Shown one piece after another: positions 6,208 through 29,184 of a stretch of 35,536 bases of DNA. The notes under the pieces are model-generated. The model did no database searches and was not told the origin of the DNA. It worked only from the letters and a program-made list of their open reading frames with translations. Origin of the DNA: a virus; the IMG/VR virus record IMGVR_UViG_3300032286_002176, positions 1-35,536 of that record, one strand, 5' to 3'. Both the position numbers and the translations under genes were made by a program. Within the stretch, counting starts at the first letter, position 1; the number at the start of each line of letters is the position of its first letter.

Positions 6208-8754
6208 TCAGGGCAGGGCGGCACTCAAATCCGGCGCCCGCTCAGGCCCTTCCTCGCCTGGTGCCCACCAGAAATCCTGCCCGCGCTCTTCATATCGGCT
6301 TTCCAGATTATCAAAATGATCCGCTGCGTCAGGGTCTGCCCACTTTTGCAGCGTGTCGAACAGCAATCGATCCATGGCCAGACGCGTGTACCACAGCGAA
6401 GATCCAGGCGTGCTTTTGCGCAGAAAATCAACAAACGCGCGTCCGGTCTGGTGTTCACCACCACCGGCGGCTTCTTCAATTTCACCAAACGCCGACCCCA
6501 CAACCTTTCCAACCCCGCCAACAAAACTGGCGGGCGGTCCGGCGATATACGTGGCAATCCCTGTGCCATCCGGCTTTGACGCGGCATAAAGGAAATCGCC
6601 ATAAACGCTCAACCCCCCGCCAGCCATTGCAGCCGACAACCAGAAATCGGGATTATCCATGGGGCGCGGATCGCGGCCCTTGGCAATCTCGCGCATCTGC
6701 ACCGCCAACGCACCACCCAGCGTCAGGCCAATGAACAACTCAGTCGCATTCTGCAAACCTTTTGGGCTCTTCACGGCTTCACCCACATAACGGCGCATGT
6801 GCATCATCATCAGCGTAACCGGAAATTGCTTGTACATGGCAAACGATCGCGTCAACTCGCCAGCTATTGATCCAGGGCGGGTTTCAGCAACCAACATGCC
6901 CCGGGCACGCAGGGTTGAATCTGGCACGGCAAATGCCGTTTCAGACTGCACCATTTCCAAAAGCCGCGTGGCCAGCTCGTCGGCTTCACCGGCGGGCAGA
7001 TTGCGGCTGGTGGCCACATCCTCGGGCCGCAAAAACCGCGCGCCACCATGGGTGTATGGCTCTACACGTTGCAAGGATTTCCAGCTCAGCTCATCAAAGT
7101 CGTATCGTTCAAGCGCGGTCCTGAAATCAGGATCAAGTTTGCCCCAGCCGGTTTTTAAATTGCGCCCCAACGCACCCAGAAATTCCATGCCGAACGCCCA
7201 TTTACCAGCCTGGGTCCACGGTGACAGCCCCGACACATACAAGATACGGTCGGCCAGCAGCCGCGTGGCCCTGGTCCCGTCGATCTCCCCGATATAGCGC
7301 GCCTGGCCGCTCATCACCTGGGCGGCTTCCTCGCCGATCAACCCGGACTGGATCGCCAAGGTCTGATCGGCTTTACTGCCGGGTTTCAAGAACTTCAGAT
7401 AATCTGTCAGAGCCCCGGAAACCTTAAGGCCGTTCATCTTCCGCGCCGCCCGCGCGAAAAATGGATCAGATGCAACAGCCGCCAGCGTGGCCGACCCCAA
7501 CTGTGCTGCCACACTCAAATTCCGCACGGTACCAAATGCATATGCCACTCCGGCATTTTGCGGGGCTTGGTTGGTCCCCATATAATTGGCCCACATGCTA
7601 TCAACCGCCGCCGTCGCACCAGCGGTGCGCGCACTCCAATCACGATGATATTCTGGCAGAACATGCGAAAACGTCACCTTGCCCCTAGGCACATCTCCGC
7701 GCGCTGCGCGCTCAGCCGCGCGCTTCGCAGCCACCTGTTTTAACCAGGTCAACGTGGATGCCGGGTTTGGCCCCAAGATCTCCATAGCGGCGACCTCGCG
7801 CGACATCTGATCGACATGCCCCATCATCACATCAAACGGATCGCGGTTGCCAAAAACGCCCTGATATTCCAGCCAGGCGTCAGCATTTTTGAAAACCAGC
7901 CAACGGTGCTCAGCGCGGCCAGAAGCGACCGATTTACCACCACCTCGGCGCGACGGCGCAACCTTCGACCACCCCTCTGCGCTGATCGCGTCATAGGCAG
8001 CCCGCAGGCCATCCTCCAGGCCTTCGGGCGACGGGGCTTTACCTGTGATGGGGTCAATCATCCGCGCTGGGTCGATCCGGTCAATGATATAGCCGCGCCA
8101 TGCATCATACCCAGCACGGCGCACTGCCACAGTGTCATGCCCCGTGGGCATGCCAAAGTCTTTACGCGCCGGAATCGCGCCACCGGCAGCGTTGAAGCGG
8201 CGGCGCAGAAACTCATGCGCATCACGCCACCCCCCCGCCAACTGTTTCGCGGCCTCATCCCCTGTATGCTCACCAAAGGCCTCGCGCACCAGGTTGTCCA
8301 ATCGCGCGCGCTCTGGGGTTTGACCGATCGCCGTGCGCTTGAACGTCAGAATGGCTTCAGCCATACGGCTATGCGCCCGGCCACGCACAGCCTTAAAACG
8401 GCTCATCACAGACGGATACGTTGTTGTGCCTTGTGCCGTGGTGTTTTCCAGCACAGCCAGGATCGCCTCGCCAAAATCTTCCTCGCCCGCATTGTTGCGA
8501 AAAGCGTTCAGGTTCGCCTCAAGCCGCGTCGCCGCGCGCTCCGTCAACAGCAGCCGGCGTTTTTTCAAGCGGGCCTCGGCGGCCAATGCCTCATGCGCTG
8601 CCTTCGCGGCAGCGGCGCGCGCTTCATCATCACCCAGATCAAGGCTGAATTGCTTTTTGTACTCCTCGTAAAGCCCGCGTGCGCGCTCCGCGCGGTCAGG
8701 ATCAGCAACTCCCTCTTTTTGTGCATTCGCGATACACAGCAAGAAATTATCCAT
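6208..8754 (-). CDS. Large ejection (internal virion) protein
   Basis: 848 residues, mostly helical and charged, with no signal peptide. It is the last of four consecutive genes between nozzle and tail fibre, the slot of T7 gp14-gp16, whose products are injected into the host to form a conduit. The N-terminal 100 residues are a predicted coiled coil rich in A, R and E. The middle contains hydrophobic stretches near NATELFIGLTLGGALAVQM and AMAGGGLSVYGDFLYAA that could insert in membranes. I see no lysozyme or transglycosylase motif. ATG 8754 is preferred (AAGGGG 10 bases upstream); GTG 8763 is possible. It overlaps the preceding gene by 8 bases. Family not recognised with certainty. Confidence 0.75.
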   Translation of the reverse strand: MDNFLLCIANAQKEGVADPDRAERARGLYEEYKKQFSLDLGDDEARAAAAKAAHEALAAEARLKKRRLLLTERAATRLEANLNAFRNNAGEEDFGEAILAVLENTTAQGTTTYPSVMSRFKAVRGRAHSRMAEAILTFKRTAIGQTPERARLDNLVREAFGEHTGDEAAKQLAGGWRDAHEFLRRRFNAAGGAIPARKDFGMPTGHDTVAVRRAGYDAWRGYIIDRIDPARMIDPITGKAPSPEGLEDGLRAAYDAISAEGWSKVAPSRRGGGKSVASGRAEHRWLVFKNADAWLEYQGVFGNRDPFDVMMGHVDQMSREVAAMEILGPNPASTLTWLKQVAAKRAAERAARGDVPRGKVTFSHVLPEYHRDWSARTAGATAAVDSMWANYMGTNQAPQNAGVAYAFGTVRNLSVAAQLGSATLAAVASDPFFARAARKMNGLKVSGALTDYLKFLKPGSKADQTLAIQSGLIGEEAAQVMSGQARYIGEIDGTRATRLLADRILYVSGLSPWTQAGKWAFGMEFLGALGRNLKTGWGKLDPDFRTALERYDFDELSWKSLQRVEPYTHGGARFLRPEDVATSRNLPAGEADELATRLLEMVQSETAFAVPDSTLRARGMLVAETRPGSIAGELTRSFAMYKQFPVTLMMMHMRRYVGEAVKSPKGLQNATELFIGLTLGGALAVQMREIAKGRDPRPMDNPDFWLSAAMAGGGLSVYGDFLYAASKPDGTGIATYIAGPPASFVGGVGKVVGSAFGEIEEAAGGGEHQTGRAFVDFLRKSTPGSSLWYTRLAMDRLLFDTLQKWADPDAADHFDNLESRYEERGQDFWWAPGEEGPERAPDLSAALP

Positions 8755-19618: not shown

Positions 19619-19974
19619 GACAGCTCTCCTCTGTCGGTTGGTGGATTGCGCCCCTCGTGAATAGCTTTCAGGATGGACGCGGCGATAGAATTCTGGCCCT
19701 CACGAAACAGGCCATAGGTCGAAATTTGATCCAGCGGGGTAAAGCCACCACCCACCCACGTGGCGCGATCAAGGGTTTGCTCAACCAGCCAATTGATCAG
19801 CTTAGCCCCATCTGGGGTGGCATAGACCCGCGCAGCGGCAGCGCTTAAATCAGAGCGCGCATGATCGCGGGCGACTTGCTGTTCAGGGGACAAGCCAAAT
19901 TTTTCAAGGCCTTCCCATCCATTTTCACCGAAACCCTGGCCGATAGCATCAATCAAACGTTCTGTGCTTGTCAC
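19615..19974 (-). CDS. Bbp19-like phage structural-module protein
   Basis: 119 residues. The core (VYATPDGAKLINWLVEQTL, GLFREGQNSIAASILKAI) fits small proteins related to Bbp19 of Bordetella phage BPP-1, found between portal and scaffold genes of temperate podoviruses. Their function is not established. It starts at GTG 19974, overlapping the portal stop (GTGA), and its stop overlaps the scaffold start, so it is translated within the coupled head operon. Confidence 0.75.
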   Translation of the reverse strand: MTSTERLIDAIGQGFGENGWEGLEKFGLSPEQQVARDHARSDLSAAAARVYATPDGAKLINWLVEQTLDRATWVGGGFTPLDQISTYGLFREGQNSIAASILKAIHEGRNPPTDRGELS

Positions 19975-21602
19975 GCAGCAGCCCCCCCGCCAGTCAATGT
20001 TTGTAAGGCGGCCTGCGCGCCCGCTTCAGGCGGCAAACCTTGTGCCTCCGCAGAGGAAGCCATTATCTGCGCGACCATTTTTTGCAAATCGCCACGCTCC
20101 TGCACGGTGCGCGACAATTCGGGATCGATACCGCCCAACTTGGCCAGCTTTGCGGGTATATCTTCGACCTTAGCCGACAGCATCGTGACTTCTTTGCCCA
20201 CCAAGGACAAACTCATGCTCAGCCAATCAACGATTTTACCCGCCTCTTCCGCAGCCTGGGCACCGGCCAGCGGCGAGGTGACTTGAACCCGCACAAGCAG
20301 TTCATCAATAGTGATTTTTACACCTTCCGGGATGGGCAGCAGCTTTTTTCCACCCATGATTTCGATCAAGCGGCGCGCCAACGGCACCACGATTTCACGC
20401 ACCAAGCGACCAAATACCCCTGCATAATCACGAGTATTCAGTTTTGCCTTCTCAATAATTTCAGTTGCCGATCGCACCGCACCCGTATTGGACGGCAGGG
20501 GGCGATCCATCAAAGGACCGCGAACTTGCTCACGCATATCCTGCAGCACCAAATTTGAAACATCAAATGACCGAGGGCTATCAAGGGTTTTAATGGATGG
20601 ACCAAACGGTCCGCCATTGCGCGCAACCTTCAGCATTTCGCCCGGCACCACGCGCGCCATATCAGGGTTAAACACCCCGTCATCAACTGCCGTCCATAGC
20701 CCGAGCATAGCAAAGGCTGCATTTTTCAAGGTCAACTCCACAACCTTGTTGGCGGTCTTACTCGCAGGCAGCGCCGTCAATACGGGGCCGCGCCCGCGTA
20801 CTTCACCCGGCGTTTTTGTGAACCGGGGGGTTAGCCATGGGCAGCTTTTGAACTCTTCTTCATGAATAAATTTTGCGGCGGTATTGTTTGAACACTCAAA
20901 AACAAACAACCGCCAAACTTTTTTATCTGGATCATAAATGGTTGATTGGCTCAAACAAATGGGCTTAGTGCTTTTCTTTTCGATAGCATCAAGGATTTTC
21001 TTTGACAGATCACCCTTTGGCCACAACCGTTGAATATCTTCTGGCCTCAGATCTCGTTTCCAATGAATGCCTTCAACGCGGCCCGTTGGGCCCTCTTCTA
21101 ACGCCACGTCCGGCGCAAAAACCGTTATGAATTCTATCAATTCATCATCATCGCCCGCGCCAACCCACATGGCGCCGGTACCAAAGGCCAAATCAAAATA
21201 CATCTCAGTGACGGCACTCTCAAAGTTCGAGGCACGCAAGGCTGCATGCAGAACGTCCGTGACCTCTGCGAGAAATATATCAATTCCCTCGCGCTGGTCC
21301 TTCGGCACCATAGGACCAGCTTCCAGCTTGAAAAACGGCTGAAAGGGCGGCGTCAAATCCGTCAATAACCGTCCGGCAAATCGGGTCAGGCTGGTTTCTG
21401 CAGTGTTGTCAAAAACGCGGTCCGTCCGAGATGCACCCTCAGCATGTGTACCGCGCGATGAAGAGCCCGATACAGGCTTGCGATACGGCAAGGCAAACTC
21501 ATAAGCCTGGTCCAAATCAGATCGGTATCGATCATTCCGTGTGTATGCGTCATCACAACGACGCTTCAGGTCCTTAAGGCTATAGGCGTGACCATCAGTC
21601 AT
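19971..21602 (-). CDS. Portal (head-tail connector) protein
   Basis: 543 residues, the expected size for T7 gp8-type connectors. Recognisable segments are the N-terminal RRCDDAYTRNDRYRSDLDQA..YRKP, FDNTAETSLTRFAGRLLTDLTPP, YFDLAFGTGAMWV, and later GRGPVLTALPASKTANKVVE and NTGAVRSATEIIEKAK. These are typical of the podovirus head-tail connector family, whose dodecamer forms the DNA channel and docks terminase and tail. ATG 21602 overlaps the previous gene (ATGA). Confidence 0.93.
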   Translation of the reverse strand: MTDGHAYSLKDLKRRCDDAYTRNDRYRSDLDQAYEFALPYRKPVSGSSSRGTHAEGASRTDRVFDNTAETSLTRFAGRLLTDLTPPFQPFFKLEAGPMVPKDQREGIDIFLAEVTDVLHAALRASNFESAVTEMYFDLAFGTGAMWVGAGDDDELIEFITVFAPDVALEEGPTGRVEGIHWKRDLRPEDIQRLWPKGDLSKKILDAIEKKSTKPICLSQSTIYDPDKKVWRLFVFECSNNTAAKFIHEEEFKSCPWLTPRFTKTPGEVRGRGPVLTALPASKTANKVVELTLKNAAFAMLGLWTAVDDGVFNPDMARVVPGEMLKVARNGGPFGPSIKTLDSPRSFDVSNLVLQDMREQVRGPLMDRPLPSNTGAVRSATEIIEKAKLNTRDYAGVFGRLVREIVVPLARRLIEIMGGKKLLPIPEGVKITIDELLVRVQVTSPLAGAQAAEEAGKIVDWLSMSLSLVGKEVTMLSAKVEDIPAKLAKLGGIDPELSRTVQERGDLQKMVAQIMASSAEAQGLPPEAGAQAALQTLTGGGAAA

Positions 21603-21811: not shown

Positions 21812-22230
21812 GTTCCCACCCACACGCAAAGACCATCAGGATCGTCAGGGATTGGCCTGAACCCCACGAGAGCCGCCAGTTTCTCATTGGCCGAGGTTCC
21901 GTAATTAAAACTCACAATGGGCTGCGGACGCGTCTGCGCCGCGACGTAAACCAGCAGGGCGCGCGCGACACGCACCACCAGACGAACGCAGGTGCGGCCC
22001 CGGGGCGTCAAAACAAACCAGACATGCAGCCAGCCCGTTTCAGGGTCTGGCCAAAAACCACCACCAGCCAACGGCTCTCCCGCCGCATTGACCAGGGCGT
22101 ATGTTTCACTGCCCGCTGCCTGAGTGATAAACCGCCCCCACGTTCGACGGCGAAGAACACGCGTCCCACCAGTGTCACTGAGCGCGGCACCGAACACATC
22201 AAGCGGGGCAGGGGTAACGAGCTGCATCAT
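21808..22230 (-). CDS. GNAT-like small protein between terminase and portal
   Basis: 140 residues with an acetyltransferase-like layout: LVNAAGEPLAGGGFWPD, then WLHVWFVLTPRG, an amphipathic helix (RLVVRVARALLVYV) and NEKLAALVGFRPIPDD, which recalls the end of GNAT folds (LGF motif). Residues for acetyl-CoA binding are not clear, so an enzymatic role is uncertain; similar folds occur among T7 gp13-like proteins. ATG 22230 overlaps the large terminase stop (ATGA). Late element copy C lies inside this gene. Confidence 0.6.
   Translation of the reverse strand: MMQLVTPAPLDVFGAALSDTGGTRVLRRRTWGRFITQAAGSETYALVNAAGEPLAGGGFWPDPETGWLHVWFVLTPRGRTCVRLVVRVARALLVYVAAQTRPQPIVSFNYGTSANEKLAALVGFRPIPDDPDGLCVWVGT
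21896..21909 (-). promoter_or_regulatory. Late element copy C, core only
   Basis: Minus-strand TTTAATTACGGAAC shares the 10-base core ATTACGGAAC with copies A, B and D, and 12 of 14 bases with A and B overall. It is inside a coding region, upstream of the small basic protein and portal genes, in the same direction as late transcription. The downstream half of the 28-bp block is not conserved, so this is the weakest copy. Confidence 0.35.
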
Positions 22231-23705
22231 GTGCTGAAGACGTCAAAATCGCCGCGGCGCGGTGCCGCTGGCCCCCTGCGAAGGTCAGCGCCAGGCCGCC
22301 CACGGATCAGTGCCGCACGGCCCACAGACGCTGAAAGCCAGTACTGCAAAGCGTCCGCGACGTGGCTGTATTCATTTTTGTCGGGCTGTGCCGAAAACAC
22401 GCCCTCTGTGCCGTGTTTTTTCTTGAACCGATAATGCGAAGCCATACCCTTGATCAAATGACCGCAATCACAGGAAATCAAAAGCGCCGCTGCATGACCA
22501 TCAATCAAACGCGTCAATTGGTCTTCGACCGACTGTAAGCGCAGATGCAACTCGTTCGTTGGGGCCGCCCGGATCACTGCCCCAAGGATATCCTGAACGG
22601 CCTCCACCCAACCAACCTCACCACCTTCCGCATCGACCCCGCCAAATGCTGCAGGATCGCACCACACAGCACCAAGGCGCGCGCCTGGAAATTTGGCCGT
22701 CAAAAGCTCAACCAGGCCATTCGCAAACCGCTTCGGTCCCGCCACACCCGGTGCATAAATTGCCAGCACGCGGGCCTGGCCACTAGGCGTGCGCTGCCCG
22801 ATCACGGCTGCAGGCTGCCCACCAGTGGCCGTGCCGGCATCAAGTCCCAATTCAAGCGGCAGCCCCGGCAATGCCTTCAGGGGGGCTGGTGAAACATGCA
22901 GCCGCTCGTTGAATAGGTGCCCAAAAACAGGGCGCCCCTCACGCGAATATCCCCACTTGTTGTGGACATTGATATCAATCCACCACGGCTGCGAGGCATT
23001 GAATTTCACCATATCGGAATAGTACGTGTCGGGCAGCTTATCGGCGTTTTCTGCCCCTGGATCCATGCCGCCAGGTAAATCGAACAGCTCAATTTCCCTG
23101 GTCTCAACACACCGCTTGTAAACCCAGTGATCGACATCGGTTTTGTTCGCGTCGATCAGAATTTGCGACGGTGTGCTATACCCATCCATCAGCAGCCGCC
23201 GTGCTGGAAAGCGGCCCTTGCGCCCGATGGCATAGATCAAAACTTCTTCCGACAGCGATCCGGCAGCATTCAAAAAAATATCGGTGGGCTCATATCCGTC
23301 AAGGATATCCTTCGCATTGGCGTCCCCAATCGCGACCATATCCAGGGTGAATTCAACCAGGCCATACTCGTCCTCAAATGTCAGCTCGTGCTTTACAGGC
23401 CGATTAGACGAGCCGGTCCAACTGCCATCCTTGGCCCGGAACCATTGCTGCCAGGTCGAGACTAGGTTGCTGTACAGCTGAGGATAGGTGTCCCGCACCG
23501 CCAGTGCCTTATATCGCCGAACACCATCCTTGCACATTGGCATGCGCCGAGCGTTCAAAATTGCCGCATGCAGACAGGTGGTGGTTTTGCCAGAACCGTA
23601 AGGTCCTATTAAGGCCTTGATGGGAGCGTCAGACGCCACGAACGCCGCCGATATCGGCCCCGGCGGGGCCCATTCACGCCAATTCAATCCGTTGGCATCG
23701 GTCAT
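22227..23705 (-). CDS. terL: Terminase large subunit
   Basis: 492 residues, the ATPase-nuclease that packages phage DNA. The N-terminal ATPase has Walker A GPYGSGKTT (residues 34-42). The C-terminal RNase H-like nuclease has the expected acidic residues: Asp289 (LELGLDAGTATGG), Asp350 (AVWCDPAAFGG) and Asp451 (EYSHVADALQYWL). Length is normal. ATG 23705 overlaps the preceding stop (ATGA) and its own stop overlaps the next start. The Arg-rich tail (GRPGADLRRGPAAPRRGD) may dock on the portal. Confidence 0.95.
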   Translation of the reverse strand: MTDANGLNWREWAPPGPISAAFVASDAPIKALIGPYGSGKTTTCLHAAILNARRMPMCKDGVRRYKALAVRDTYPQLYSNLVSTWQQWFRAKDGSWTGSSNRPVKHELTFEDEYGLVEFTLDMVAIGDANAKDILDGYEPTDIFLNAAGSLSEEVLIYAIGRKGRFPARRLLMDGYSTPSQILIDANKTDVDHWVYKRCVETREIELFDLPGGMDPGAENADKLPDTYYSDMVKFNASQPWWIDINVHNKWGYSREGRPVFGHLFNERLHVSPAPLKALPGLPLELGLDAGTATGGQPAAVIGQRTPSGQARVLAIYAPGVAGPKRFANGLVELLTAKFPGARLGAVWCDPAAFGGVDAEGGEVGWVEAVQDILGAVIRAAPTNELHLRLQSVEDQLTRLIDGHAAALLISCDCGHLIKGMASHYRFKKKHGTEGVFSAQPDKNEYSHVADALQYWLSASVGRAALIRGRPGADLRRGPAAPRRGDFDVFST

Positions 23706-23986
23706 TCCCCAAACCCTCCGTCCGCCTTTGTATCCCGCCCCCGCGCGTCCACAGCAGGCAGGATTGAAATCTGGAAAAAAGTGCTATGAATGGGGGGGCG
23801 GCCCCCCGCCGTCGCCGCTTGTCGAAGGGGGGTCCCCCGCGCAGCCGGGCGGGCGCGTGACACCCCCCCCCATGCTTTTTCTGAGCGCACCGATGCACCC
23901 CCCTCTTCGCGCACGATCCGCGCGGGGGACATGGCTAGCGCACCTGATGACGTATCTGATGCGGCAATGGTGAAAAGCTCAATCAT
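23702..23986 (-). CDS. Unknown small protein between terminase subunits
   Basis: 94 residues, not recognised. The N-terminus reads MIELFTIAASDTSSGALAMS; the middle is basic and rich in R, G, A and P. Evidence that it is translated: its ATG overlaps the small terminase stop (ATGA, 23983-23986) and its stop overlaps the large terminase ATG (ATGA, 23702-23705), keeping the coupled chain unbroken. Its DNA is unusual, with long runs of G or C (for example 23794-23807 and 23867-23874) unlike its neighbours, so it could be a coupling segment more than a conserved protein. Confidence 0.5.
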   Translation of the reverse strand: MIELFTIAASDTSSGALAMSPARIVREEGGASVRSEKAWGGVSRARPAARGTPLRQAATAGGRPPIHSTFFQISILPAVDARGRDTKADGGFGE

Positions 23987-24543
23987 TTCAACGCCTCCCC
24001 GTCCGTTTCCGACTTCTCATTTCCGACTTCACAATCTGAAACCTCATAAGTCGTTGTTTTTTCTGGGGTTGAGGCGCGCATATTCAGAGGGCGCGCATCC
24101 AGAATTTCACGGCCCGCTGCAGTGCCTGCGGACGGCCCTTGGCCCGCCCACACAGCCACGTTCTGCGCCAGCACGATGGGGGCAGCACCCACCCCCTCGA
24201 TCGCCAGGGGCAGTTTCTGGTGGCAGTAGGGAAGCAATTCCTTAGCCAGGTCGAGGATGATCCGCAGAGCCTCGACCGGCTTGCAGTTCAGATCCTTCGC
24301 CAGCACCTTGGCGCGCTCCAAAAGCTCTGTTTTCTCATCGACGAACACGAACCGGGCGATCTTCTCTGCAGGCGTGCCGCCATACGTGGTGGCAATCAGG
24401 CCCACCAACTCGCGCGTGCGCTTGTTCGTGGCCCCCGGCGGGCGACCAGCGCCCCGGCCACCGTCCGCCCCGGCGGGCGTCGTGAACATTTCCTGCTGCA
24501 GCGCCGTGTGCGCTGCATTCGCCCCGGTTTTAGGATCGCTCAT
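23983..24543 (-). CDS. terS: Terminase small subunit (putative)
   Basis: 186 residues. The region GGRGAGRPPGATNKRTREL, then YGGTPAEKIARFVFVD, LNCKPVEALRIILDLAKELL and PYCHQKLPLAIEG resembles a class of phage small terminase or DNA-packaging proteins with a basic AT-hook-like start and helical core. Position just before the large terminase agrees. The C-terminal about 60 residues look disordered. ATG 24543 has AGGGG about 11 bases upstream and overlaps the stop of the frame at 24540-24941. It would recognise the packaging start site. Confidence 0.75.
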   Translation of the reverse strand: MSDPKTGANAAHTALQQEMFTTPAGADGGRGAGRPPGATNKRTRELVGLIATTYGGTPAEKIARFVFVDEKTELLERAKVLAKDLNCKPVEALRIILDLAKELLPYCHQKLPLAIEGVGAAPIVLAQNVAVWAGQGPSAGTAAGREILDARPLNMRASTPEKTTTYEVSDCEVGNEKSETDGEALK

Positions 24544-24941
24544 AAGCCTAAACCCCTGATATTTAATTGGAAATCGGAAAATAAGACAGCACCACCCGAT
24601 CCTGTCTTGTTCGTGTCTTGTGCTAACCTATTGTTTTTTATAACTGAATAGTAATTTAAGACAAACAAGACAACAAGACAGCAACCCCCTATACACGCGC
24701 GCGCGTGCACATTACGCGTATCCTGCTGTCTTGTTGTCTTGTTTGTCTTATTTTCCGATTTCATCAGCTCTTTCAACCACTTAGTACAAGACACGAACAA
24801 GACAGCCCCCCAAACCCGTGTCTTGTAATCGGCCCCGCCCCGCTGAACCTTTTCAGCATAGGCCGGCTGTGGGTTCCGTAATATCAGACGCAAGGCCCCG
24901 TGATCGGGTGTGGGTATCTCTTGCAGGATAAGGGTTTGCAT
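24540..24941 (-). CDS. Doubtful coupled frame covering the repeat array
   Basis: An open frame of 133 residues fits exactly between helicase and small terminase: its ATG overlaps the helicase stop (TGATG at 24939-24943) and its stop overlaps the terminase start (ATGA). The first about 40 residues (MQTLILQEIPTPDHGALRLI) look like a plausible protein; the rest is read through the nested inverted repeats (24570-24826) and has odd composition with a hydrophobic stretch (CCLVVLFVLNYYSV). It may be a real short gene, a translational bridge, or an accident of an origin region. No family is recognised. If it is not coding, this 397-base gap holds only the repeat array and late element D. Confidence 0.35.
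   Translation of the reverse strand: MQTLILQEIPTPDHGALRLILRNPQPAYAEKVQRGGADYKTRVWGAVLFVSCTKWLKELMKSENKTNKTTRQQDTRNVHARACIGGCCLVVLFVLNYYSVIKNNRLAQDTNKTGSGGAVLFSDFQLNIRGLGL
24570..24826. repeat. Nested dyad-symmetric iteron-like array, candidate origin
   Basis: Exact inverted repeats share one centre at 24703.5. The inner arms are 27 bp (24657-24683 and 24724-24750). The outer arms are 24 bp with one mismatch (24602-24625 and 24782-24805). The spacers between inner and outer arms are 31 bases on both sides. All arms are built from ACAAGACA or TGTCTTGT: nine exact copies at 24603, 24614, 24665, 24673, 24727, 24735, 24786, 24797 and 24819, plus near copies at 24581, 24656 and 24744. A further 19-bp inverted repeat joins 24570-24588 and 24744-24762. 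The AT-rich spacers and the site next to replication genes suggest an origin or a large operator. Confidence 0.8.
24859..24886 (-). promoter_or_regulatory. Late element copy D, upstream of packaging genes
   Basis: Minus-strand TGATATTACGGAAC (24886-24873) matches copies A and B at 13 of 14 positions; the downstream half keeps CGGC and the final TA but is otherwise diverged. It lies in the region between helicase and small terminase, ahead of the packaging and head genes and next to the repeat array. It would be the most upstream late element. Confidence 0.45.
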
Positions 24942-26761
24942 CAGTCGTCACCCCCGCCGTTGCGCTGGTCATAGGGCGTGTCGTCCAGGAACGCATCGAA
25001 CAGCATGGCCGTGCCGCGCACCTGTGACCCGTCGATGTATTCCCGGCACTCTCGCCACCATTCCGGCGGACCTTGGCGCAGCGCGTGCGCCCATATGCCG
25101 GGCACACCGGGCGATCCCTGCCAGTCGGTGCCCTCAAACAGCTTGTACAGCTGCGGGTGCGAGTTGGGGACGAACAGCGCCCATCGCTCACCGGCCACCG
25201 TAGGTTTACTCAGCCCAAGACCAGCACGCGCCAGCAAATTGCGGCACACGGCCAGCTCGCGGCCCTCTATGCCATCGTTGAACCCCTGCAGCAGCTTGCC
25301 GACCGAGATTTTAGGGCTCTGCTCCCAACTTCGGGGTGTGGTGCTCATGACATGCTGAATGCACAGCTTCCAATTGGGCAGTGCGTCCTCATACTCGGCC
25401 ATGCCCTCGGCCCGCATCCCTGCTGCGATGGTACTGGCCCCGGCGATGGAATATTCATCCGCCAACAGCAGATCCGCGCAGGCGAGCAGCGTGCCAAATG
25501 TGTCCTGCCCACGCGCGTCATGGCCGACCTGCGCCAGCTCGTGGCGGTAACTCTCAAATGTCTCATCGAACCGCCACCACTGGTCCAGCAGGCGGCGCAG
25601 GAACAGTCTCCCGGTGGCCACCAGCCACTCGACCTCGATTTTCGGTGCTTGGCCAGAATGGGTGAGGGATCGCAAGGTTAGCATGGCCATCCGTGATCGA
25701 TCCTGTGCCCTCAGCGGTGCGGCATTGATTGAACTGAAGGCAAAGCAACTGCGCGCGTTGAACGATACCCCCTTGTGCTCAGACCCGCCGCGCAGCATCA
25801 AACCGCCCGACGCGGCCACCCTGAACAGCTCCACAACCGCCTGCGCGCGCCTGTTGTCAGCCTTGGCTTCGATTTCGTCCACCGCCACCGGCAGGCTGTC
25901 AAAACCGATGGATTGATAGATACCCGCCGCCGTCGTGTCGGTTGTGGACACGATCGCGCCCCCCATCACACCGGCGATCACGCTTTGCAGCGTCGATTTC
26001 CCCGTGGCCTTGTCGCCCGTGATCCAGATCGCGGGCCGCCAGCGCAGGGCACCGCCCAGCATCGCCGCCGCGATCCACCCCAACATCAGCCGGGCATCGA
26101 TGGCGCGCACCCAATTCCAGGTCTGCAACAGCGCCAGCATATCGTCAGCGGCCTTTGTATCAGCCTCTTGCTCCATAGGCCCCGGCACACCTGGTCGCGC
26201 GGGGTAGACAGACCCGGCATGCTCCCCCGGTAAAATCCAATGCCCACCAGCCCACACCTTGTCTCCACAGTGCAGGATCAAATCGCCATCGTCCCCGCGC
26301 CAGGCACCCCGCCCGCGCACACGCGCCATGTTGGTGAACAGCCCGCGCCTGGCGCAGGCGTCCTGCAAATCCTTTGTCACCAACTCCGCGCGGAAATTAT
26401 CCACCGTCCCGTCCTTGGTCATGCGCGGCCACGCCCAATACAGAAAATTCGAGCGGCCAGCGAACAGCCCCGTCAGGTGCTTTTGACCAAACTCAATGGG
26501 CTTGAGAGACCGCAACTGCCCTAGCGTATCGATGAAGAAAAACAGGTCATCGCACACCCCGACAGGCCGCACAGGGCAGCCCTTGGGCAACCCGAACTCA
26601 TCCACCAGGCCCGCCTCTTTCCAGGCACCCGGCTTGACGCCATGCAAATTGGCATACCCCGGCGCCGGATCGATCGGGTCCAGTGGATTTTCGACAATAC
26701 GTGTGGGCTTGGCGTGGGCCACGATCTCGCCCACGCCTTTTGCGCCCCCTCTTGGTGGCAT
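24941..26761 (-). CDS. Replicative helicase, SF3/P4-type ATPase
   Basis: 606 residues. Walker A GDKATGKST is at 249-257 (preceded by WRPAIWITG), Walker B PVAVDEIEAK at about 291-300, followed by a sensor-like FAFSSINAAPL. This arrangement is that of phage primase-helicases of the P4/D5 superfamily-3 type; the primase domain is separate here (27445-28539). The N-terminal about 200 residues likely bind DNA or the primase. It probably unwinds the phage origin, perhaps at the adjacent repeat array. ATG 26761 has TAGGG nine bases upstream. Confidence 0.85.
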   Translation of the reverse strand: MPPRGGAKGVGEIVAHAKPTRIVENPLDPIDPAPGYANLHGVKPGAWKEAGLVDEFGLPKGCPVRPVGVCDDLFFFIDTLGQLRSLKPIEFGQKHLTGLFAGRSNFLYWAWPRMTKDGTVDNFRAELVTKDLQDACARRGLFTNMARVRGRGAWRGDDGDLILHCGDKVWAGGHWILPGEHAGSVYPARPGVPGPMEQEADTKAADDMLALLQTWNWVRAIDARLMLGWIAAAMLGGALRWRPAIWITGDKATGKSTLQSVIAGVMGGAIVSTTDTTAAGIYQSIGFDSLPVAVDEIEAKADNRRAQAVVELFRVAASGGLMLRGGSEHKGVSFNARSCFAFSSINAAPLRAQDRSRMAMLTLRSLTHSGQAPKIEVEWLVATGRLFLRRLLDQWWRFDETFESYRHELAQVGHDARGQDTFGTLLACADLLLADEYSIAGASTIAAGMRAEGMAEYEDALPNWKLCIQHVMSTTPRSWEQSPKISVGKLLQGFNDGIEGRELAVCRNLLARAGLGLSKPTVAGERWALFVPNSHPQLYKLFEGTDWQGSPGVPGIWAHALRQGPPEWWRECREYIDGSQVRGTAMLFDAFLDDTPYDQRNGGGDD

Positions 26762-27444: not shown

Positions 27445-28539
27445 TCATGATGAAGCCCTAAGACAGTCGTTCACATCCTTGCCGATCGGCGATCGGCCCA
27501 CAGAAACCGCCACCCCCTGGGCCTGCAGGGTGGCAATCGCTTTATCCAGCCCCGCTTGCGCGGCGGGGCTTTGCCAATCGTTGTCAGCGATCACAACCAC
27601 ATGGTCGGCGCAGGCGGGCAATTGCACAGACGCCAGCCCGGCCAGCGATCCTGCAGCCCAAATGCGCAAATCTGGGCGGGCCATAGCCACGGACAACGCG
27701 TCCTCAATGCCCTCGGTCAGCACCAGCATTTCGCGGATACCGCGCGCCCCGGCGACCTCAGGCCTCAACCCGGTTGCACCACGGGTAATCCGCACGGCAG
27801 CACCGCGCGCCACGCCCATCATCTTCTTGGCAGGACAACCAGGCGGCACCGGCGCTTTTCCCCGCCCATCAGGGGCCAGGTAGGTGCGATGCACCGCCTG
27901 TATGCCATCCAGCGGGCCGCTCATGGCCGCGATGATCGCCGGGAACTTGGTTTTGAAATCACCGTGGACATAGGGCAGCTCTGGGTGAAACCGCAGCGCG
28001 CGCAATGGCGGCAACACGCTCAAATCAATGCTGCGCATGGCCAGGTACCGTTCTGCCACCGTATCCTCAACGGTCGGTTGCGCGTGCAAAAACGCCGCAT
28101 TCGCACCCTTGATTTGCCGCGCCTGGCGCGCGCGTTCTTCGATCAACCCCTGCGCCGCTCGATCCGCCGCCGCCTGGTCCACGGCAGCCCGATCCATCTT
28201 CGGGCGTCGCCCGGCGGGGCCATCCATCCCAACATAGGATCGCGCCCACCGGAACGCGGCCTTCCGCGCCTCAGGCGATCGGTATTTTCCGGGGCCAGCC
28301 TGGCAATAGGCGATCAGGTCAAAGACGTCGCCCTTGTCCGTGTCGCCCGCGTCGTATTCCTTCCAGGCCCCATTCGCCCACACAACGAACGATTCCCCGC
28401 GCTTTTCCGCACGGGTGGGGTTGGCTGCGGTATAGGTCCGGCCCACCCACTTACCGCCGGGGGCCAGGTCGGCAACCAGGTCGCGGATCCGGCCCGTCAG
28501 CATGGCCTTAAGTGTGCCCGTATCATCATGCGGCGGCAT
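27445..28539 (-). CDS. Toprim-domain DNA primase
   Basis: 364 residues. The C-terminal Toprim domain has LVLTEGIEDALS (catalytic Glu276) and VVVIADND (Asp319/Asp321), followed by the KDVNDCL ending common in phage primases. The N-terminal region (ESFVVWANGAWKEYDAGDTDKGDVFDLIAY) has the outline of a primase zinc-ribbon fold but lacks the Cys/His metal ligands. It makes RNA primers with the SF3 helicase encoded two genes downstream. ATG 28539 overlaps the previous gene by 14 bases. Confidence 0.85.
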   Translation of the reverse strand: MPPHDDTGTLKAMLTGRIRDLVADLAPGGKWVGRTYTAANPTRAEKRGESFVVWANGAWKEYDAGDTDKGDVFDLIAYCQAGPGKYRSPEARKAAFRWARSYVGMDGPAGRRPKMDRAAVDQAAADRAAQGLIEERARQARQIKGANAAFLHAQPTVEDTVAERYLAMRSIDLSVLPPLRALRFHPELPYVHGDFKTKFPAIIAAMSGPLDGIQAVHRTYLAPDGRGKAPVPPGCPAKKMMGVARGAAVRITRGATGLRPEVAGARGIREMLVLTEGIEDALSVAMARPDLRIWAAGSLAGLASVQLPACADHVVVIADNDWQSPAAQAGLDKAIATLQAQGVAVSVGRSPIGKDVNDCLRASS

Positions 28540-28876
28540 GGATCACCCCCAGCTCAATCCGATGCAGGCAGGCATCAAATGCAGGATCATCACGCCGATC
28601 CTCGATCCGCCCCATCATCTGGCTGATCGCGGCATGGCTGACACCGGCGGCGCGCGCCATGCTCATGCGCCCCAGGTTCAGGCTGACCGTGGTCACGTAC
28701 AACGCCACCCCCCGCGCTTCGGTCACAGCACGCGGCCTGCGCGGCGCGCCCCGTGTGTGTGCCGCGCATGGGGCCAGGATCAAACCCGCATCCACCCCTG
28801 CGTCCATCGCATACAGCGTCGCCGCGACCTCGTACGCCGCGCGCGCCATCAGGGGGGACAGGCTCAATCGTGGCAT
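28526..28876 (-). CDS. DnaA domain IV-like HTH protein
   Basis: 116 residues. The C-terminal two thirds (TEARGVALYVTTVSLNLGRM, SMARAAGVSHAAISQMMGRIEDRRDDPAFDACLHRIE) resemble the DNA-binding domain IV of DnaA: a helix-turn-helix without the ATPase part. Such truncated DnaA-like proteins occur in alphaproteobacteria and their phages; the exact family needs a profile search. It may bind the phage origin or regulate host initiation. ATG 28876 is within a TGATG overlap with the upstream gene, and GGAGG is four bases before it. Confidence 0.6.
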   Translation of the reverse strand: MPRLSLSPLMARAAYEVAATLYAMDAGVDAGLILAPCAAHTRGAPRRPRAVTEARGVALYVTTVSLNLGRMSMARAAGVSHAAISQMMGRIEDRRDDPAFDACLHRIELGVIHAAA

Positions 28877-29184
28877 CACCCCTCCAGATCAGCGCGATAG
28901 GGTTGCAGGGGCCGCGCACAAACAATCTCCAGCGCTGCATCGGCCAGCGCTTCCAGCGCGGGCGCATATCGAACCCGCATGGGCGGGATCAGCGTCACCC
29001 ACCAGCGGGCATAGACATGCAGCGCCAAAAACACCTGCAGCCCATTCATATGGTCCGCAGCCGCTTCATTCGGGCCGATGCGATCCAGGGCGTCACGCAA
29101 ATGCGCCGCTGCCCCTGCATCACGGGGGGCCAAAACCGCCCGGTGCGCGCCCGCAATCAATATTTCGCCAGGTGTGCGCCCCAT
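28876..29184 (-). CDS. Unknown small protein, early minus-strand operon
   Basis: 102 residues, Ala-rich and helical (GAAAHLRDALDRIGPNEAAA, ALEALADAALEIVCARPL), soluble, with no recognised domain. It is translated in a coupled chain: its ATG (29184) sits in a TGATG overlap with the Cro-like gene stop, and its own stop overlaps the DnaA-like start. Its place suggests a role in early lytic control or replication start. Confidence 0.6.
   Translation of the reverse strand: MGRTPGEILIAGAHRAVLAPRDAGAAAHLRDALDRIGPNEAAADHMNGLQVFLALHVYARWWVTLIPPMRVRYAPALEALADAALEIVCARPLQPYRADLEG

Follow-up and report, generated by a model that had tools for sequence, protein, structure and literature searches.

A mirror-symmetric iteron array downstream of a phage helicase gene as a proposed replication origin

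The 35,536-nucleotide stretch of viral DNA analyzed here (the window) contains a large nested palindrome built from copies of an 8-bp unit and located between a replication module and a terminase that are encoded on the same strand. This position raises the question of which protein reads the units, and for what purpose. A first-pass annotation, made from the sequence alone, took the palindrome for a candidate phage origin and allowed that it could also be a large operator or a partition-like site. Our analysis indicates that the array is very probably the phage's own replication origin, with the helicase encoded at 24941–26761 as its initiator, and that this origin would be of the SaPI/PICI-type kind but dyad-symmetric and not A+T-centered.

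Architecture of the array and its surroundings

The array spans 246 bases and contains 12 ACAAGACA units (nine exact, two carrying a single mismatch and one carrying two), six on each side of position 24703.5. It is the only array of these units in the 35.5-kb window. Beginning ∼115 bp beyond the helicase stop codon, it occupies most of the gap between that stop (24941) and the start of the next gene (24543). The features of the array and of the genes around it are as follows.

24581–24826, no strand: dyad-symmetric iteron array, proposed replication origin; 12 units forming six mirror pairs about 24703.5
24581–24588, plus strand: outermost-left unit ATAAGACA (one mismatch), mirror partner at 24819–24826
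24603–24621, minus strand: outer-left cluster, two exact TGTCTTGT copies (24603–24610 and 24614–24621) at a pitch of 11 bp
24622–24655, no strand: left A+T-rich spacer (76% A+T), a possible unwinding region, at an A+T peak of the family metaprofile
24656–24680, plus strand: inner-left cluster, TTAAGACA (two mismatches), ACAAGACA and ACAAGACA at pitches of 9 and 8 bp
24692–24721, no strand: central alternating purine–pyrimidine tract TACACGCGCGCGCGTGCACATTACGCGTAT, alternation 0.97
24727–24751, minus strand: inner-right cluster, TGTCTTGT, TGTCTTGT and TGTCTTAT at pitches of 8 and 9 bp
24752–24785, no strand: right A+T-rich spacer (62% A+T)
24786–24804, plus strand: outer-right cluster, two exact ACAAGACA copies (24786–24793 and 24797–24804)
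24819–24826, minus strand: outermost-right unit TGTCTTGT, mirror partner at 24581–24588
24941–26761, minus strand: replicative AAA+ helicase, 606 aa, phrog_21086, proposed initiator; distant DNA-primase/helicase match
24992–25066, minus strand: helicase codons 566–590, last β-hairpin ('wing') of the C-terminal domain, proposed iteron-specificity element
27445–28539, minus strand: Toprim DNA primase (DUF7146 and Toprim_3), a gene of its own in the same operon as the helicase
23983–24543, minus strand: small-terminase-like (TerS-like) gene downstream of the array, assigned from position and a GRPxG motif only
22227–23705, minus strand: terminase large subunit (TerL)
19971–21602: portal-like protein, recognized by eye

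The inner arms of the palindrome (24657–24683 and 24724–24750) match exactly over 27 bp. The outer arms (24602–24626 and 24781–24805) contain the single mismatch described in the first pass, but extend over 25 bp rather than 24 bp. Both pairs share the center 24703.5, and it is because of this symmetry that the spacers between the arms (30–31 bases, by choice of arm ends) are of equal length. The outermost units (24581–24588 and 24819–24826) form a third mirror pair about the same center, which had been missed. An earlier count of at least nine copies in both orientations agrees with the nine exact copies read directly in 24570–24826 as ACAAGACA or TGTCTTGT, and the total rises to 12 when the mismatched units are included.

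The symmetry is indeed unlikely to arise by chance. Mirrored positions are complementary at 81 of 140 places compared with a maximum of 66 over 100 whole-window shuffles, and 24703.5 ranks top in dyad score over the 35.5 kb. The nine exact copies of one 8-mer in 257 bp compare with at most four for any 8-mer in 50 window shuffles. The spacers are A+T-rich, as had been claimed, with 76% and 62% A+T versus 41% for the window overall. The array center is not A+T-rich and instead carries the alternating purine–pyrimidine tract, a feature absent from the first-pass annotation; alternation as high as 0.97 is found nowhere else in the window. A single strand of the array folds as a nested 25 + 27 bp stem (z −11.8), a hairpin potential that follows automatically from the inversion of the unit clusters. 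GC skew is monotone and uninformative, with no inflection at the array.

Two further features overlap the array. A perfect 19-bp inverted copy, GAAATCGGAAAATAAGACA (24570–24588 and 24744–24762), is centered at 24666, off the array center, as if the inner flank had been copied to the outer left end via recombination. On the minus strand, a 133-codon frame (24540–24941) crosses the entire array; its first 38 codons, ahead of the array, are a possible small gene, and the remainder is probably due to chance.

The neighboring genes agree in part with their earlier description. The primase placed in the helicase operon is the Toprim primase listed above. The protein encoded at 28526–28879 had been called DnaA-like, a label that finds no support: a Pfam search relaxed to E 10 gave no match for it, and no DnaA box (TT(A/T)TNCACA) was found in the window.

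Conservation of layout with changing units

The first arrays of other 8-bp words past the helicase gene came from two GenBank records and one related virus contig. Of the 78 loci that a profile scan then returned, 56 non-redundant ones with both a helicase and a TerS-like gene were analyzed as close relatives. A significant array (p 0.05 or less versus shuffles) lies between these two genes in 53 of the 56. Relatives that carry the same genes without the array had been named as evidence that would count against an origin; the three loci below significance on exact 8-mers are L013, L045 and L053, and L013 keeps a strong dyad at the locus (z 5.5). In one contig, L043, the helicase frame (6881–8005 and beyond) is split into two adjacent frames by a frameshift or sequencing error, and the downstream array is present.

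A scan with distant primase–helicase fusions gave a further 80 loci, 77 of them testable. A significant array is located within 370 bp after the helicase stop in 64 of these, and the same shuffle test found none in the other 13. Genome contigs gave no match to the single helicase sequence, and a profile scan later recovered eight loci, apparent prophages of Sphingomonas, Methylobacterium and a Rhodospirillales bacterium. The array is present in all eight of these alphaproteobacterial loci (p 0.017 or less). Because relatives of the helicase occur in these genome contigs, the host of the window phage is likely alphaproteobacterial.

The arrays of the relatives consist of 8-bp units and are about 160–305 bp long. 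The unit word varies between loci (ACAAGACA, CGGTTCTA, ACAGAACC, CTGTAACC, CGGTAACG, CGTTGCAG, CAATTAGA and others), and what is conserved is the layout of inverted inner clusters, A+T-rich spacers and outer clusters. Many relatives have far weaker gapless dyads than the window, as a result of small indels, yet keep 8–12 units. Because the gapless dyad test and a strict mirror-pair test both fail in many relatives, we adopted an orientation metaprofile in which the 56 arrays were superposed on their cores. The inner clusters lie ∼38 bp to either side of the core, with forward/reverse counts of 70/0 on the left and 0/66 on the right, of which only the right side is informative since the left inner orientation served as the reference. 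In the close group, outer clusters follow at roughly 85–125 bp from the core, and A+T content peaks at 0.53 and 0.60 between the inner and outer clusters versus a background of 0.34. The central 30 bp of the close group are alternating purine–pyrimidine (0.71–0.78 versus about 0.48); the tract is exceptional for its own locus in 38 of the 56 arrays and central in 47. The metaprofile of the distant group shows a central A+T peak.

Close-family arrays contain a median of nine units with at most one mismatch, five per side. The tidiest, with twelve, are those of L029, L047 and the window, counting its two-mismatch unit. The family as a whole follows a looser rule, of which the window's exact symmetry is an especially regular case: the strict mirror-pair test (±1 bp) reaches p 0.05 in only 24 of the 56 loci.

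Repeats of other kinds are also present in some of these contigs. In three contigs that encode fusion helicases, palindromic AGTACATTTGTACT-type sites that look like repeated operators form a second array, about 2.7 kb past the helicase stop in L085 and L121 and about 3.2 kb past it in L086. Near-perfect tandem repeats in one orientation occur in others at 3.4 kb (L122), 4.0 kb (L126), 4.2 kb (L114) and 5.0 kb (L146) from the helicase stop. Dense direct repeats unrelated to the proposed origin array are found in L145 (23 × AGGCGCAC, 5741–5947 bp downstream of the helicase stop), L060 (16 × CGCAGCCC, 975–1237), L029 (15 × CCGCCGCC, 1–194) and L035 (12 × CCGTCGCC, 767–960).

Helicase, terminase and other candidate partners

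Throughout the close family, the array is upstream of the same TerS-like gene, and a packaging site was the explanation that we favored at first. In that case the array would be a cos or pac start at which the small terminase encoded downstream binds the units and marks the concatemer for cutting. The array may adjoin TerS and lie kilobases from the helicase, or the reverse: it is 1–4 kb from the helicase in some close relatives, including L025, L041, L065 and L044, where it adjoins TerS at 2–3 kb from the helicase, but it is 0.5–1.2 kb from TerS in about ten others. We dropped the packaging explanation after the scan with fusion helicases and a reciprocal test with terminases. In the primase–helicase fusion phages, the array begins about 0–100 bp past the helicase stop, no TerS-like relative is found near it in these loci, and the downstream genes in the four fusion loci examined are unrelated to those of the window (TerS phrog_57 with TerL phrog_15; TerL phrog_2; a methyltransferase). 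Reciprocally, no comparable array precedes the terminase genes of Rollin, Y3, Hodr, Pmp11 or Ss1, which have a related TerL and other replication genes. Weak three-copy clusters are located ahead of the terminase in Ss1 (p 0.04) and in BcepC6B (p 0.02), where a polymerase/primase gene precedes the terminase once the genome is circularized. Because the array is kept beside unrelated packaging families, and because related terminases lack it where the replication genes are of other kinds, it follows the helicase, to which it is genetically linked, and not the neighboring terminase. A packaging site would be expected to track the terminase rather than the replication genes, and this is not what we observed.

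The unit sequences also bear on this choice. L046 and L056 have 13 GTTCC cores and L047 has 13 GTTAC cores, all of its units having switched together. TerS identity runs opposite to the iteron, with only 25% between L046 and L056, where the iteron is common, and 88% between L046 and L047, where it differs. With these results, a packaging function appears improbable. Helicase positions that change with the switch are overrepresented in the hairpin at residues 566–590 (7 of 25 versus 44 of 612, p 0.002), in what is a single post hoc contrast of three loci with the hairpin delimited after the alignment was seen. The switch residues in L046, L056 and L047, in window numbering, are HHY at 571, RRG at 572, KKP at 573, SSL at 580, VVS at 581, QQK at 582 and KKR at 590. 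In a family-wide Mantel-type test of the iteron against the helicase C-terminal domain or TerS, the correlation with the C-terminal domain is weak and, with controls applied, not significant; several other helicase segments correlate with the iteron as well as this hairpin does. The TerS alignment was too diverse for use in a collection scan. L049 and L054, which have identical TerS, were considered as a second specificity switch and rejected; the L054 units are a mixed AGAACY set with no clean change.

Repeated inverted sites are typical of operators, and the array falls precisely at the junction of the replication module with the terminase, both on the same strand, as expected for a large operator or switch where a regulator separates early replication from late packaging genes. 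Such a site, without origin function, is very unlikely given that the array, with 12 units in 246 bp, A+T spacers and a conserved core, goes beyond ordinary operators, that the helicase is the sole constant partner across distant phages, and that a non-systematic look beside the array saw no conserved regulator gene. It is similarly hard to credit that the array is an origin whose inverted repeats are extruded as a cruciform or stem-loop and recognized by their shape, in the manner proposed for phage BIP-1 and pRN1 (PMC4234260). The nested 25 + 27 bp stem and the inversion of the inner clusters across the 56 analyzed arrays are consistent with that idea, but many relatives combine far weaker gapless dyads with a retained set of units, a hairpin does not need the outer clusters, and in L047 all 13 units have changed together, which points to reading of the sequence. 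Iteron-like clusters can also serve as partition sites. That the array would serve a plasmid-like prophage in partition or incompatibility is nonetheless extremely improbable, because the genes read around the array belong to replication and packaging and the relatives in bacterial genome contigs are apparent prophages. A phage origin is the best-supported reading, as arrays with this layout accompany the helicase gene from one family to another.

Helicase fold, known origins and a model for initiation

The predicted structure of the helicase (606 residues, pLDDT 90.7) matches the NrS-1, ASFV, SaPI5 and D5 helicases in Foldseek, with NrS-1, SaPI5 and D5 first. In VIA-align, the best match is SCCmec Cch (5dgk; Z 16.5, residues 52–595, 438 aligned, rmsd 7.0) and the second is SaPI5 Rep (7ola; Z 14.5, rmsd 5.3), with MCM proteins close behind; at 11–13% identity, the Cch and SaPI5 Rep matches indicate likeness of fold and make no statement on function. 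The motifs GDKATGKS, VAVDE and FSSIN followed by QDRSR are conserved, with the assignment to SF3 motifs made by eye. No Pfam model matched the window helicase, Cch and MCM folds score as high as SF3, and a profile search of PDB sequences returned only P-loop and marginal matches. The protein had been called an SF3 helicase; it is better described as an AAA+ initiator-type helicase with SF3 members (D5, NrS-1) among its close folds and its model nearest to SCCmec Cch and SaPI5 Rep. Modeled alone, the C-terminal 145 residues (pLDDT 88.8) have the helix–helix–hairpin order of winged helices. Their best match is weak (TcpK 5vfx, E 0.05); TcpK binds 9-nt repeats via a β-wing (PMC6137059).

The layout had been thought unlike the known lambda- or P4-type origins. 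Iteron origins that lie 3′ of a helicase gene and are read by its product are already a known kind, and the SaPI/PICI origins are the nearest example. The C-terminal domain of SaPI Rep binds iterons directly downstream of rep (PMC7581432), and PICI origins have two iteron sets around an A+T-rich region, with a cloned rep–ori able to support a plasmid (PMC6092414). As in SaPIbov1, SaPI1, SaPI5 and EcCICFT073 (PMC7581432, PMC6092414), the gene for a putative initiator helicase is followed by two sets of short iterons, here six units per side and in the family a median of five. The array lies immediately 3′ of that gene in the window (∼115 bp past the stop) and in the same interval in relatives. 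The modeled helicase also appears to share the Cch/SaPI Rep fold (5dgk, Z 16.5 over 438 residues; 7ola, Z 14.5). The arrangement around the center differs: the SaPI/PICI iteron sets flank one A+T-rich region, whereas the close group has a G+C-rich alternating center with A+T in the flanking spacers, and the window units form a strict mirror array. The module also differs in being carried by a phage with its own terminase large subunit and portal-like protein, rather than by a helper-dependent satellite without packaging or capsid genes.

Other systems share parts of this organization. Cch (DUF927), the best structural match of the whole window helicase, is encoded by SCCmec, as is Cch2, of another helicase family, which uses its C-terminal domain to bind repeats in the intergenic region that follows the gene (PMC7581432). 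SCCmec, however, is not a phage, and only three 5-nt iterons are described for Cch2. The satellite phage P4 uses the helicase activity of its alpha protein to replicate from short iterons (ori, crr), and its origin consists of two separate cis sites. By comparison, the window has one array only in the 35.5 kb of a possibly incomplete record; P4 replication is compared in PMC6092414. For pRN1 ORF904 and phage BIP-1, an origin with inverted symmetry is likewise proposed directly 3′ of the gene for an SF3 replication protein (PMC4234260). In those cases, the proposed origin is a 100-nt stem-loop without iterons and a polymerase-type primase domain is fused to the helicase, whereas the window has a separate Toprim primase. 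As far as we searched, the strict dyad, the alternating core and use as a phage group's own origin are not described in the openly accessible literature.

We infer that the helicase binds the array directly, with the C-terminal domain of each subunit recognizing one 8-bp unit and the last β-hairpin (residues about 566–590) as the main specificity element. Subunits would collect on the two mirror half-sites, six units each in the window, and assemble two ring helicases that face opposite ways. The DNA may then melt between or beside the rings, with the A+T-rich spacers and the alternating central tract, which is sensitive to supercoiling, as the two candidate sites, and the Toprim primase would prime two divergent forks, making replication bidirectional. 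A more specific version of this model is tentative and doubtful as a whole. Here, the array would be a two-fold symmetric helicase-loading origin in which each six-unit half seats one ring, so that the DNA itself would dictate a double hexamer in the head-to-head arrangement of MCM origins. Opening would occur in the alternating core, which is sensitive to supercoiling (Z-prone), and not in an A+T block, and specificity would be reset by a concerted change of the units together with one helicase β-hairpin.

Arrays of this kind, organized much like the known SaPI/PICI origins, probably serve as origins in a large group of alphaproteobacterial phages and prophages, and a related form with an A+T-rich center probably does so in further virus contigs encoding primase–helicase fusions. 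More than 100 natural helicase/iteron pairs, including one clean specificity switch, offer a resource for the study of self-loading initiator helicases and double-ring loading.
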